Below are positions 51,201 through 55,364 of a DNA stretch of 64,000 nucleotides, piece by piece; position 1 is the first letter of the stretch; every line of letters starts with the position of its first letter. Source of the DNA: Rhodospirillaceae bacterium (GTDB lineage: Bacteria; Pseudomonadota; Alphaproteobacteria; Rhodospirillales; Rhodospirillaceae); contig JAQWRV010000007.1 of NCBI GenBank assembly GCA_029243545.1, forward strand, positions 1-64,000, in the 5' to 3' direction. The translations under genes and the position numbers were made by a program. The notes under the pieces are model-generated. The model was not told the origin of the DNA and searched no databases. It saw only the letters and a list, made by a program, of their open reading frames with translations.

Positions 51201-51223
51201 AGAAAACCCCACCGAAGCGGGGT
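51201..51223 (-). terminator. terminator of the ABC-TetR-CbiX operon
   Basis: On the minus strand ACCCCGCTTCGGTGGGGT forms a short GC stem with a GCTTCGGT loop followed by TTTTCTTTT. It lies about 50 bases after the stop of the CbiX-like gene. Confidence 0.7.
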
Positions 51224-51274: not shown

Positions 51275-52375
51275 TTATAAGCTAGCCGCTTGTCGACGTA
51301 CTGTCTCAACAACCCATGTAGTGAAATTGGGATGCTGGGACATCCCCTTTTCATTAAACTTATAATCCAGTCCGCGCAAATCCTGCGTGATGTGATGCTG
51401 CAGGCCGTCGGCGGAGACAGACGGTGAAATCACGATCAGCGACTTTCCGCTGCGCTGGGCCTGCTGCATCCAACGCCTGAGCTTCCGCACATTTCCTTCC
51501 CGGACAGGCGGAATGGCATCGTCTTGTAAGTTTATGGCCTTCACATCGCTAAACCCGCCGGCGTCTTTGATTTGGCTGGCCAGGCTTTCGATCACCGGCA
51601 GATCGAGCACATTGTCGAACTCATCTTCCGGGCCGTGGGCGATGAGGAACACGACTTCGTTAGCCGGGTCAGCACTGATCTCATTGGCGTAATCGGTCAG
51701 AATGTCTCCGATGAGGGGGTCGTCATCCATGTTAGGCGCGAACACCAGGCGGGCCTTGGTTTTAACGGGTTTGACGCTGAGGTAAGACGACTCATCCCGT
51801 TGACCGAGGATGTATTCCCATTGCCGGGTCATGGAATTGTAGACCGTAGACGTGGTCTGCACCAAGACGATGGTCTCAGCACCGGCGGCTTCCAGGTCGT
51901 CAAAGGCCGCCTGGAGATGGGAGGACGTCATCATGGCCATGCCGTAGCCGATTACAGTCGGATATTCAGCGGCGAGCGACTTGACGGAATCGGTGACGAG
52001 GCGGTCTCCCCTTTCGCTCACACCGTGGGAAAGGATCAGCACTCCAATATCACCTTTGACATCGGCGCCGCTGACATACCAGGAATAGTTCTCGCCCATT
52101 TGTGCTACGTTGAGGCGCAACTCGTTGTCGGTGAGGGCCCGGTAAAGGGCGATCTTTGCCTTGAGACCGGTAATAACGTCATCGCTGAGCATATCGCGCA
52201 TATCCATGCCCATGCGGCGGCGGCCCTGATCATCGGCCGGCGGCATGGGCATATCATGCCCTTGATACCCTCCGGCAGTGTGAGCGCTGTGGTCTTCCTG
52301 GGCCCCGAGCGGGGCTGATCCGCTTGCCAAAACAAAAAGAGAAATACCGAGGGTCAAAACGTGTGTGGGATTCAT
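51275..52375 (-). CDS. exported CbiX/sirohydrochlorin-chelatase-like protein with His/Met-rich N-terminus
   Basis: The 366-residue product has a signal peptide (about 1-25, SAPLGAQ). A stretch rich in His and Met follows (about 26-65: DHSAHTAGGYQGHDMPMPP, then RRRMGMDMRDM), of the kind that binds soft metals. Two chelatase-like half domains come next, each with the family's strand-histidine motif: IGVLILSHGVSERGDRLV (about 110) and EVVFLIAHGPEDEFDN (about 248). CbiX-type chelatases insert Co, Ni or Fe into tetrapyrroles and are normally cytoplasmic. An exported, metal-box version is unusual. Its ATG overlaps the TetR gene stop (ATGA), and it is the last gene of a four-gene operon. Confidence 0.78.
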   Translation of the reverse strand: MNPTHVLTLGISLFVLASGSAPLGAQEDHSAHTAGGYQGHDMPMPPADDQGRRRMGMDMRDMLSDDVITGLKAKIALYRALTDNELRLNVAQMGENYSWYVSGADVKGDIGVLILSHGVSERGDRLVTDSVKSLAAEYPTVIGYGMAMMTSSHLQAAFDDLEAAGAETIVLVQTTSTVYNSMTRQWEYILGQRDESSYLSVKPVKTKARLVFAPNMDDDPLIGDILTDYANEISADPANEVVFLIAHGPEDEFDNVLDLPVIESLASQIKDAGGFSDVKAINLQDDAIPPVREGNVRKLRRWMQQAQRSGKSLIVISPSVSADGLQHHITQDLRGLDYKFNEKGMSQHPNFTTWVVETVRRQAASL

Positions 52376-53013
52376 GTTTGTGCTCTCCCTTGAGCGTGAC
52401 GGATTGGTTTTATGAGGGGGTGAGACGCTGACTCCAGTACGGCCAGAACACCGGACCGGAGCTCGGCCGTTATGCTTTCAACGCCGCCGTTTTCCAGTGC
52501 AAGCGCTGCCGCCGACTGGACCATGCCGGAAATCATCGAAGCAATCGTGACGGCATTGCGGCCCGAGCCTTCAAGGCTATCCGCAACAGCGGCGGAAAGA
52601 GTTTTATAGAGCCTGATATGTAACCGCAGGACCTTCTTGCGCGCATTTGGCGCAACAGCCTGTAATTCTTTTGCCAATTCATAGGAGGCGTGATCCGGCC
52701 CGGTCGCAAAATCCATTTGAGCCTCGACCCAGGCCAGAACCCTATCCCGCGGTGGCCGTAAACCTTCCGCGATGACCTTGTTGCGCGCGTCCACCGGCTC
52801 CATAGCGTGCTCGACACAGGCGATAAGCAGATCATCCTTATTGGCGAAATAGTGATAGAAGGAACTGCGTTTAAGCCCAACGGAACGGGCCACGGACCCG
52901 ATATCAACTCCCAAATACCCCTTCGCCTGGAACAGCCGCAGAGCTTCCGTCAGGATTCGGCCCCGCTGTTGGGCGACATGTTCCTCGACTGTGGGGGCGG
53001 CGATCTTCGGCAT
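52372..53013 (-). CDS. TetR-family transcriptional regulator
   Basis: The 213-residue product has an N-terminal helix-turn-helix (about 15-65: RILTEALRLFQAKGYLGVDI, GSVARSVGLKRSSFYHYFAN, KDDLLIACVEHAM) and a helical ligand-binding C-terminal domain. It lies inside the operon, 6 bases after the ATPase gene, and overlaps the CbiX-like gene by four bases. The perfect palindrome at 54866-54884 in front of the operon is the likely operator, so autoregulation is expected. The inducer may be the transporter's substrate. Confidence 0.9.
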   Translation of the reverse strand: MPKIAAPTVEEHVAQQRGRILTEALRLFQAKGYLGVDIGSVARSVGLKRSSFYHYFANKDDLLIACVEHAMEPVDARNKVIAEGLRPPRDRVLAWVEAQMDFATGPDHASYELAKELQAVAPNARKKVLRLHIRLYKTLSAAVADSLEGSGRNAVTIASMISGMVQSAAALALENGGVESITAELRSGVLAVLESASHPLIKPIRHAQGRAQT

Positions 53014-53019
53014 GGGGCG

Positions 53020-53715
53020 TTAGGACTGCGGCCCGCCGGCCGCCGCCCTGGTTAAACAGCCGTCTTCCATGTTCACCACCTGATCCGCCCAGGGCAGATT
53101 GGCCTGATCGTGGGTCACCATGAGGGTGGCAACTCCGTGTTGTTTGGTCTGCTTGGCAAGCAGTTCGACCACTTCCCGGCCCCGGCTTTGATCGAGCATG
53201 GAGGTCGGCTCATCGACCAGCAGGACAACCGGTTCTGACATGAGCGCACGCGCAATTCCGACCCGTTGACGCTCTCCGCCGGACAATTGATGAGGCCGGT
53301 GACCGGCCCTGTGAGACAGGTCAACTTCATTGAGGAGGTCCCGGGCCCTGTCTCTGTTTTCACGGTTTGGTGTGCGGCCGGAAATGTGAGTCATAAGGAG
53401 GAGCTGGTCCATGGTCGTCAAGGCGGCCACGAGGTTTGACTGCTGAAAGATAAAGCCAATGCGTTCCCGCCGGAGCCGGGACCGTTGATTTTCAGTCATG
53501 GCCGTGAGGTCCTGACCGTCAATGGTGACGCGCCCGGTAGTCGGCGGAAGCAGCCCACCACAGACAGCAAGCAAACTCGATTTTCCCGCGCCCGATGGAC
53601 CCATCACCGCACAGAGGGACCCCGCATTGGCAGACAACGATACGGACTCAAGCGCTGTGACCTTTTGATCGCCATCACCAAGGACAAGCGAAACTGAATC
53701 GACGGTAATGGTCAT
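53020..53715 (-). CDS. ABC transporter ATP-binding protein (LolD/MacB type)
   Basis: The 231-residue ATPase has Walker A (MGPSGAGKSSLLAVCGG), Q-loop (IGFIFQQSNLVAALTTMDQL), signature (HQLSGGERQRVGIARALMSE), Walker B (PVVLLVDEPTSMLDQSRG) and H-loop (TLMVTHDQANLPW) motifs. The sequence is of the group that pairs with FtsX/MacB-type permeases, which do mechanical work on periplasmic clients and not classical import. Its start overlaps the permease stop by four bases. Confidence 0.94.
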   Translation of the reverse strand: MTITVDSVSLVLGDGDQKVTALESVSLSANAGSLCAVMGPSGAGKSSLLAVCGGLLPPTTGRVTIDGQDLTAMTENQRSRLRRERIGFIFQQSNLVAALTTMDQLLLMTHISGRTPNRENRDRARDLLNEVDLSHRAGHRPHQLSGGERQRVGIARALMSEPVVLLVDEPTSMLDQSRGREVVELLAKQTKQHGVATLMVTHDQANLPWADQVVNMEDGCLTRAAAGGPQS

Positions 53716-54851
53716 CGCAACTGTCCTAAAGCAATGATGGGGTCAATGCCGGCGATGGTGCGCACAGCCAAAGCAGCGCCCACTAGACCACCGCCAATAA
53801 CCAAGCCACCGGAAATCAGCATGGCGTTAATATCAATCACGTAGGGAATATCAGTGCGGTCCACGATGTAAGTGCCGAGACCGTAGCCGACTAAAACACC
53901 GGCGATGCAGGCGAGCGTCAGCAACATGAACGCTTGAGCTAAGGCATCGCCCACGAGGTATCCTGTGGACGCACCAAGCGCCTTAATAAGACCGATCTCT
54001 TGCGTGCGTTGAATGGTCCAGACGGTGAAGAATGCGCCGATCACCAGCGTGGAAATAACCAACAAAAAGCCTTGGTTGATCCGCACAGAATCACGTTCCG
54101 CGGTGTACCCGGTAGACGCAACAAACGACATGGGTTTGTCCAGGGTGACGGTAAACTGCGCGTCATCGATAGCAGCAACGTCCGCCGTCTCTTCAAGGTC
54201 AAGCGCAACGACTGTGGCGAAGTCATACAAAATATCCGGTAGCGATTCTCCCGGTAGCGCACCTCCCGGAGGACCATAAGACGCTTCTGCCCAGAGCCGG
54301 AATGGCGCATAGACGACGGGCGTATGGGCGATGTTGTTGTGCGCGTTTACGATGCCGACCACTTTGAGTTCAGTCAGAACACGATCCAGGACAATGGTGT
54401 CGCCGATTTCTACGTTGTTATCCTCAACCAGCATACGGCTAACGACCACGCCGTACGGGTCATTGCCGATGGGTTGGCCGATGTTGGCTCCGGGATCAAT
54501 AAACGTACCCGGCTCCATGCCCCAGAGCGCCACATTGACCGGGTCGCCTTTCGACGTGCGGGCGTTAAACAGGGTGTTGCCGAGCGGCACGGCTGCGTTG
54601 ACACCGCTTTGTTCAGCCCAGCCTTCCCACGTGGTGCGCTCCACCATGCTGTTGGACCAGGTTGGCTTGTCGTCAAACTCAAAAGCGATGTGAGTGATGG
54701 GTAAGGCCCGGATTCCGGAAATATTGCGGTCAACCAAGCCACTCGACAATCCGGTCAGCAGCACCATCATCAAGGCGACCATGACGATAACGGTTGCCAT
54801 CAATACAAAGCGGCCTTTGGCAAAGGCTAGGTCGCGAACGGCGAGAAACAT
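53712..54851 (-). CDS. FtsX/MacB-type ABC transporter permease
   Basis: I start it at the ATG at 54851 (MFLAVRDLAFAKGRF), 379 residues; the longer frame would run through the operator. Layout is one N-terminal helix (FVLMATVIVMVALMMVLLTG), a large periplasmic domain (about 40-260, including GMEPGTFIDPGANIGQPIGN), then three helices at the C-terminus (GFLLVISTLVIGAFFTVWTI; AFMLLTLACIAGVLVGYGLG; ISGGLVIGGGLVGAALAVRT). This is the FtsX fold. It is the first gene of the operon permease-ATPase-TetR-CbiX-like. Client or substrate unknown. Confidence 0.9.
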   Translation of the reverse strand: MFLAVRDLAFAKGRFVLMATVIVMVALMMVLLTGLSSGLVDRNISGIRALPITHIAFEFDDKPTWSNSMVERTTWEGWAEQSGVNAAVPLGNTLFNARTSKGDPVNVALWGMEPGTFIDPGANIGQPIGNDPYGVVVSRMLVEDNNVEIGDTIVLDRVLTELKVVGIVNAHNNIAHTPVVYAPFRLWAEASYGPPGGALPGESLPDILYDFATVVALDLEETADVAAIDDAQFTVTLDKPMSFVASTGYTAERDSVRINQGFLLVISTLVIGAFFTVWTIQRTQEIGLIKALGASTGYLVGDALAQAFMLLTLACIAGVLVGYGLGTYIVDRTDIPYVIDINAMLISGGLVIGGGLVGAALAVRTIAGIDPIIALGQLR

Positions 54852-54865
54852 AAAGTAGCCTATTT

Positions 54866-54884
54866 TATCGACAGTATGTCGATA
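54866..54884. promoter_or_regulatory. perfect palindrome, likely TetR operator
   Basis: TATCGACA-GTA-TGTCGATA is an exact 8+3+8 inverted repeat ending 14 bases before the permease ATG. Its size and position at the head of an operon that encodes a TetR regulator make it the probable operator, where binding would block transcription. Confidence 0.75.
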
Positions 54885-55364
54885 TCCTGGCGTCACACCA
54901 CAACAAAGGCAAGCAGAAATTGGATGTGATCAAGCTGTAAAGCTGGTTATGTCACCTGCTCAGCGTACGCAATGCCAAGTACCGTGAAAACATGGGTCCC
55001 TCCTCAGTGAACGAATGTGTTCTAGTGACTCTCCCCGAGTGATTGGCGCAACAAATTCAAAACAACACCGGCCAACAAGGCCTTACACTATTAAACCTTA
55101 TGCCTATCGTTGAGGGATACAAGGTAATTGTTTGCGAGATATTCTAAAAATCAGCCACCGTTCATAAACCCAGCCAAATTAGTCTACTACTTCTCGCAAC
55201 TCATCCGTTTCCCTAAATATGTCTGGACACCTTGATCGCCGTTTAGCGGGTCTTGCGATTTAAACGAATGTGGGTGAGTTTCAAGGTTATCGAACTCAGC
55301 CATAAGAGGACAATGAAAAGCTCCCCTCAACAAAGTATTTTGAAGCGTCTGTGCTGCAGATGTT
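54885..55364. other. intergenic region, no confident gene
   Basis: About 480 bases between the operon promoter and the flavoprotein gene at 55365. A minus-strand frame at 55187-55303 encodes 38 residues (MAEFDNLETHPHSFKSQDPL, then NGDQGVQTYLG) that look somewhat protein-like, but it has no ribosome-binding site and no recognisable family. It could be the end of a lost gene. I see no terminator for the flavoprotein gene. Confidence 0.35.

Follow-up and report, generated by a model that had tools for sequence, protein, structure and literature searches.

An HrtBA-like transporter operon with a TetR regulator and an apparently exported chelatase-fold protein in a Rhodospirillaceae bacterium

The stretch of DNA analysed here, called the window, comprises 64,000 nucleotides of a Rhodospirillaceae bacterium (assembly GCA_029243545.1, contig JAQWRV010000007.1, positions 1 to 64,000), and it carries on its minus strand an operon of four genes in the order permease, ATPase, TetR-family regulator and chelatase-like protein. 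The first gene (53712..54851) encodes an HrtB-like permease of 379 amino acids, the second (53020..53715) an HrtA-like ATP-binding cassette (ABC) ATPase of 231, the third (52372..53013) a TetR-family regulator of 213 that is probably an autorepressor, and the fourth (51275..52375) a CbiX-like protein of 366, which resembles two-domain class II chelatases and is apparently exported. All four frames are present, and the junctions, taken from permease to CbiX-like gene, are a 4-base overlap, a 6-base gap and a 4-base overlap, which bears out the operon described in an earlier note on this DNA. The perfect palindrome of 8+3+8 bases that the same note placed ahead of the operon is found at 54866..54884, beginning 33 bases 5' of the permease ATG; the end coordinate given there, 54884, is that of the palindrome. 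The longest permease frame opens at 54896, and the ATG at 54851 agrees with the start of most homologues and is most likely the true one.

On sequence comparison, the permease and ATPase are homologous to the heme exporter HrtBA in the family tests that were run. Compared with all PDB sequences by phmmer, the permease matched HrtB of Corynebacterium diphtheriae first and over its full length (E = 3.6e-35), with the next family at 2.6e-5, and a three-row permease profile returned HrtB at 5e-50 and MacB at 3.1e-5. The predicted permease fold, with a predicted local distance difference test score (pLDDT) of 83.7, placed four HrtB chains on top in Foldseek (E = 1.5e-21 to 3.6e-21, 31-32% identity, template modelling score by query length up to 0.75), followed by MacB at 1.3e-16 and then LolCDE. 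The ATPase likewise matched HrtA of C. diphtheriae (7w7a_A) first among the PDB sequences, at E = 1.6e-54, one of 25 sequences at E<=1e-40. The earlier note had spoken of a mechanotransducing FtsX ABC pair, and this holds at the level of domains, the Pfam cut-offs being passed by FtsX (permease C-terminal domain) and ABC_tran (ATPase), as well as by TetR_N (regulator); the generic label is too broad, the closest relative being the heme exporter. Filing the permease under generic FtsX/MacB or DevBCA transporters was rejected, since HrtB matches far better and no adaptor, that is, no membrane-fusion partner gene of the MacA/DevB kind, occurs among the four operon genes and the four tested neighbours.

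The heme-ligand residue of HrtB is conserved in this pump. Glu219 of HrtB is the axial heme ligand according to an excerpt of a review (PMC11442138), and in the profile alignment E252 of the permease stands opposite it. Glu occupies the position in 15/15 aligned permeases, which cover 15 of the 19 operons of this type assembled below, one of five similar loci (L036-L040) standing for all. The MacB-like permease of the window's own genome (L085) has Gly there, and in a wider set, to which one Deinococcus, three actinobacterial and one Staphylococcus permease were added, Glu is found in seven of eight rows.

By inspection, the CbiX-like protein has an apparent Sec signal peptide (residues ~1-26), a His/Met-rich stretch (~27-55; EDHSAHTAGGYQGHDMPMPP...MGMDMRDM), which also follows the signal in most family members, and chelatase domains (~106-366), and it is presumably exported. 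Pfam gave zero matches at E<=1, the cut-off of Pfam CbiX (PF01903) not being reached, and NCBIfam returned only CfbA, over residues 111-231 and under the model cut-off (E = 1.8e-4); a CbiX-like paralogue in the same genome passes Pfam CbiX (26.4 and 23.9 bits, cut-off 22). The assignment was made by structure and profile comparison. The predicted model (pLDDT 86.7) matched SirB with a Z score of 19.5 over 230 residues at 2.5 A, ferrochelatases at ~17-18, the periplasmic CbiK of Desulfovibrio vulgaris at 17.3 and FetB of Porphyromonas gingivalis at 16.3, and the 50 structural entries listed are all chelatases or described as similar. When the full-length protein was aligned in HHalign with 13 rows of two-domain CbiX, taken from relatives within the family or order and presumably of the Paracoccus type, the probability was 97.8 and the E value 6.5e-12 across both halves; a fourteenth stretch was left out because the wrong reading frame had been picked in it. 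Judged from the model and the profiles, membership of the class II chelatase superfamily, with the two-domain fold of SirB, HemH and CbiK, can be regarded as settled. A PDB profile search with the chelatase alignment gave no significant match, the C-half alone failed to match the N-half of canonical CbiX in HHalign, and the CbiK family (PF06180) had no match in the own genome (G000) at E<=1e-10 and gave rows in 0/80 genomes. Of the exported two-domain chelatase-like protein proposed earlier, the fold is supported and the signal peptide is apparent by inspection, and the tetrapyrrole or metal theme suggested alongside it gains support from both the HrtBA-like pump and the chelatase fold.

The exported family was then surveyed with two peptide patterns across 84,980 species, each represented by a single genome, a scan that misses more distant members, and 44 loci were found, all in metagenome-assembled genomes (MAGs) titled alpha- or gammaproteobacterial or bearing names of such groups. 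The permease and ATPase genes precede the chelatase gene in 18 of them, and in 11 of these 18 a TetR gene, sought with the window TetR at E<=1e-5 inside the available stretch of each locus, is present as well; the conserved co-occurrence for which the earlier note had proposed a search is found. No gene fits between ATPase and chelatase in L036, L039, L041 and L051. Together with the window, these loci, which were found through the chelatase, provide 19 pump-linked rows, a chelatase copy being counted as such only if its gene directly follows that of the ATPase or TetR (the ATPase in L047 and L051, which are the family relatives G039 and G016).

The pairing of pump and chelatase also shows in the phylogeny. 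In a tree of 52 rows, the 19 pump-linked chelatases fall into a single clade (support 97/94), as they do among 38 rows holding 19 of the 33 others (97/93); the 52-row tree requires one change, as against 15.6 in shuffles, with 0/500 as low. Permease and chelatase pairwise identities correlate across 15 of the 19 operons (r = 0.88; Mantel, 0/5000 permutations). Searching from the permease side, the gene was found in 3/96 relatives, each time beside the chelatase, and a phylum survey found the chelatase in 2/398 genomes (the own genome and one partial match) and the permease in 1/398 (the own genome), counts that may truly be higher, as only the best first-look candidates per genome were scored. 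A permease without a chelatase was seen in neither the phylum survey nor the 96 relatives, the one exception being a degenerate 5' fragment that the own genome carries (G000:C21:201439-201603; L089:6458-6604). This permease fragment spans 49 codons at 86% identity with an apparent half operator before it, which indicates that a second copy once existed and has since been lost.

The window chelatase shares 73-76% identity with five gammaproteobacterial MAG loci, compared with 43-45% to family relatives, suggesting that the operon has been transferred between classes. Plasmid-borne spread was considered and rejected: the chelatase had just three matches in the plasmid collection, all from Candidatus Manganitrophus, at ~30-32% identity and covering 65-70%. 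The replicons concerned (CP114559, CP114554 and CP114562) hold distant relatives of the exported chelatase. Relatives of the permease (E<=1e-6) occur in 30 of 72,556 plasmid records, by genus none of them proteobacterial (Streptomyces, Enterococcus, Deinococcus, Staphylococcus, Rhodococcus, Listeria, Embleya, Arthrobacter and Paenibacillus). Among five neighbourhoods inspected, a sensor kinase and response regulator adjoin the permease in two (Streptomyces sp. SGAir0924 and Rhodococcus), the Rhodococcus plasmid also bearing an HsmA-family gene; the Staphylococcus plasmid carries a gene for a tryptophan-rich sensory protein of the TspO type, and those of Deinococcus and S. coelicoflavus show nothing telling. 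In L045, L047, L051, L057, L062 and L079, moreover, copies of the exported chelatase family stand in tandem or nearly so. Canonical CbiX (E<=1e-5) was found in 0/14 relatives that strongly match the exported family, as against 62/82 others, a difference that kinship may explain.

The regulator is linked to the operon by its candidate operator. The 64 kb contain no perfect 8+3+8 palindrome other than this one, TATCGACA-TAC-TGTCGATA, but about one is expected by chance (64000 x 4^-8), so the palindrome alone proves nothing and the argument comes from its conservation across operons. A site like TATCGACAnnnTGTCGATA lies at -30 to -34 of the permease start codon in 9/11 other TetR-bearing operons; with the window, whose own site is the pattern, this amounts to 10/12 TetR-bearing and 0/7 TetR-less operons (Fisher, 7e-4), each of the ten sites having p <= 0.006 in 500 shuffles. 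In L052 the site is weak and lies at -62 (p = 0.014), and L047, in which TetR is displaced, has none. Since the operator recurs with TetR and is absent without it, TetR most likely represses its own operon and is probably an autorepressor acting through the palindrome, as the earlier note had supposed. The own genome holds one perfect copy of the operator, and a wider TetR regulon was rejected: allowing <=3 mismatches gives 9 sites, while the reversed control gives 3. HrtR coordinates heme through His72 and His149; in 12 aligned TetR rows H12 is invariant and H132 near-invariant.

Taken together, these observations favour, with somewhat better than even confidence, a TetR-controlled, Gram-negative relative of the HrtBA-type heme-efflux systems that is joined to a dedicated periplasmic chelatase-fold protein. 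By homology, the pump would extract heme, or a tetrapyrrole related to it, from the inner membrane, squeezing it into the periplasm, where the exported CbiX-like protein would receive the ring and handle its metal, whether by removal, insertion or binding, with the His/Met-rich stretch holding metal. TetR would sit on the promoter operator and be released when a ligand, probably a tetrapyrrole, accumulates, like HrtR in Lactococcus.

Several observations weigh against this proposal. For the pump, the ATPase runner-up, a mycobacterial dipeptide-transport ATPase, follows HrtA by a narrow margin (9.6e-53, with LolD at 3e-44), and the best NCBIfam models of the ATPase are DevA and LolD, all below cut-off, so that the ATPase alone would not decide; the Staphylococcus permease relative has Gln at the Glu site; and an identity of about 30% does not fix the substrate. 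No heme gene occurs among the four tested neighbours, which look unrelated to the operon. For the regulator, HrtR is not named among the best 60 of 78 PDB matches, and TetR was not found in 7/19 operons and is displaced behind the chelatase gene in L047. For the pairing, a second chelatase copy from another clade lies near the pump in 4/19 operons (L045, L047, L051 and L079), and the one in L047 sits immediately ahead of the permease, which means that the pairing does not involve one clade exclusively. The earlier note held that CbiX-like homologues occurring without the ABC genes would refute its reading, and taken literally this is the case in 25/44 loci, which have no such pump in the available stretch (L076 has a weak 24-bit permease match; one more locus is truncated); these copies fall outside the pump-linked clade and are therefore read as paralogues.

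The earlier note had suggested comparing the histidines of the exported protein with those of known chelatases. Residues were counted in the 52 chelatase-family rows, 19 pump-linked and 33 others. The first His is kept in both halves, H117 in 52/52 rows and H247 in 51/52, the remaining row being truncated. The second His of the N-half is lost: its site (S181) holds S, T, G or N in 52/52 rows, and the His two residues earlier (179) that occurs in 10/52 is absent from the window protein. A candidate second His of the C-half, H328, is present in 16/19 pump-linked rows and 0/33 others (in a first subset 0/19 others, Fisher 9e-8, a descriptive figure since the rows are related), and D332, in the arrangement H328-x-x-x-D332, is found in 19/19 pump-linked rows and in all rows reaching it. 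H247, H328 and D332 are reminiscent of His127 and His187, the C-half pair that an excerpt of PMC4063343 reports to be essential in Paracoccus CbiX. The N-half replacement weighs against the favoured proposal, as do K, K and N in place of H328 in 3/19 pump-linked rows and the automatic alignment, in which Q326, not H328, stands opposite the template His and the H328 match needs a 2-residue gap.

These counts bear directly on a possible, although not the likelier, version of the favoured proposal and a sub-case of it rather than an alternative to the pump, namely that the chelatase fold of the exported protein has lost its catalysis and serves the pump as a hemophore-like carrier or sequestering protein for heme or porphyrin. 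In its favour are the replacement of the N-half second His in every row and the presence among the structural matches of FetB of P. gingivalis, whose PDB title names a heme group, whereas the likeness of H247, H328 and D332 to an essential catalytic pair argues for retained activity.

It is rather unlikely that tetrapyrroles play no part, with the HrtBA-like pump exporting some other lipophilic or metal-chelating compound and the chelatase-fold protein acting as a periplasmic chaperone for Cu, Ni or Co. DHSxM-type repeats, which resemble copper-binding Met/His repeats, are found in several members, seven units standing behind the signal peptide in L051 (L051:5263-6411) and shorter or related repeats in L073 and L059; the N-terminus of the own paralogue weakly matches CopI, a copper protein, at E = 0.0022 and well under the cut-off; and the set of chelatase histidines is incomplete. 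Both pump and chelatase come from tetrapyrrole-handling families, however, the heme-ligand Glu is present in every aligned permease, and the extra H328 is confined to pump-linked rows. A general TetR-controlled toxin-efflux operon with the chelatase gene as a passenger is very improbable, given the one clade, the matched divergence (r = 0.88) and the survival of the pairing in TetR-less operons, even though TetR-FtsX-ABC sets are common in efflux operons and this operon seems to move between classes.

A further lead comes from the heme pathway of the hosts. Canonical HemH (PF00762, E below 1e-70) was found in 6/19 operon genomes, divided into 1/12 with TetR-bearing and 5/7 with TetR-less operons, as well as in 8/11 searched genomes with only unlinked copies and in both of two family-free genomes. 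The difference between operon and unlinked-only genomes has p = 0.057, and that between TetR-operon genomes and the rest of the chelatase-family genomes searched (1/12 against 13/18) has p = 0.0008. G043 is the same as G514 and was counted once; kinship, together with a completeness unestablished for 24 genomes, confounds the counts, which are therefore a lead only. Canonical HemH was not found in the own genome (rated 100% complete), in G016 and G039, or in 10/16 further operon genomes. The own genome does contain a frame of 504 residues (C26, L153:3058-4572), apparently anchored in the membrane, which follows an ABC ATPase gene and has a ferrochelatase match of 22.9 bits (cut-off 27), and weak ferrochelatase matches in frames of ~500-570 residues occur in 10/24 further genomes; such frames are possibly another extracytoplasmic chelatase-like family. 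The HemH pattern would fit heme-scavenging auxotrophs in need of protection, as is L. lactis, a heme auxotroph that scavenges heme, or cells with an alternative ferrochelatase. A doubtful and speculative extension is that the exported protein works as an active, extracytoplasmic chelatase, inserting or removing metal once the pump has delivered a tetrapyrrole to the periplasm; in the boldest form, HemH-less cells would finish or recycle their heme there.

Around the operon, a terminator-like hairpin with a T tract lies directly 3' of the CbiX-like gene (51206..51223, minus strand). The region has 7 terminator-like sites and its shuffled versions have 5.5 on average, so the argument for a terminator comes from placement and not from number. 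A promoter scan of the region was at chance level (3 against 3.2). The neighbours are an FAD (flavin adenine dinucleotide) protein and a solute-binding protein on one side, and an alpha/beta hydrolase and an acyl-CoA dehydrogenase on the other.

Among known systems, CbiX (Paracoccus type), SirB and CfbA share the fold and the full-length profile match with the window protein. They are cytoplasmic and serve siroheme, cobalamin or F430 synthesis (in part from PMC4063343), whereas the window protein is apparently exported, has no second His in its N-half and carries a stretch rich in His and Met. CbiK of D. vulgaris, a cobaltochelatase of the same chelatase fold (Z 17.3), is periplasmic by its PDB title. 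To our knowledge, the setting of this CbiK includes no HrtBA-like pump. FetB (IhtB) of P. gingivalis and the de-chelatase HmuS of Bacteroidota are proteins of the chelatase type that serve heme use outside the cytoplasm or at the membrane, FetB belonging to heme uptake. HmuS is likewise placed in heme uptake in an excerpt of PMC12583661, and unlike the window protein it belongs to the CobN/ChlH superfamily. MacAB-TolC and LolCDE are Gram-negative type VII ABC transporters of the same superfamily as the pump, with a permease match much weaker than that of HrtB. A title cited in an excerpt of PMC12670364 links MacAB-TolC to the efflux of protoporphyrin in E. coli, so that Gram-negative porphyrin exporters of this superfamily are not in themselves new.

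The closest system is HrtBA/HrtRBA, described in the Gram-positive bacteria C. diphtheriae, S. aureus and L. lactis, with which the window operon shares the best pump matches and the conserved heme-ligand Glu, as well as, in the manner of HrtR, a TetR gene within a pump operon whose promoter holds the operator (excerpts of PMC11442138 and PMC12670364). In an excerpt of the 2024 review (PMC11442138), HrtBA homologues are described as yet to be identified in Gram-negative bacteria. Searches of titles and abstract beginnings in the literature on HrtBA, Gram-negatives or Alphaproteobacteria and exported CbiX found no published account of this operon and no papers joining CbiX and HrtB. We know of no described HrtBA system of which an exported chelatase-fold protein is part. 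The window operon differs in its proteobacterial hosts, in its order of permease, ATPase, TetR and chelatase, and in the exported chelatase-fold protein, linked in 19/19 loci (found via the chelatase; the permease search, 3/3, agrees). The exported chelatase and the proteobacterial hosts set the operon as a whole apart as a variant, though its pump would work like HrtBA. It is a conserved and concrete candidate, whose four genes make extracytoplasmic metal handling of tetrapyrroles, and the substrate, testable, and it hints at how uncultivated bacteria, many here seemingly without HemH, deal with heme; if confirmed, it would represent a novel type of system by which Gram-negative bacteria handle heme.

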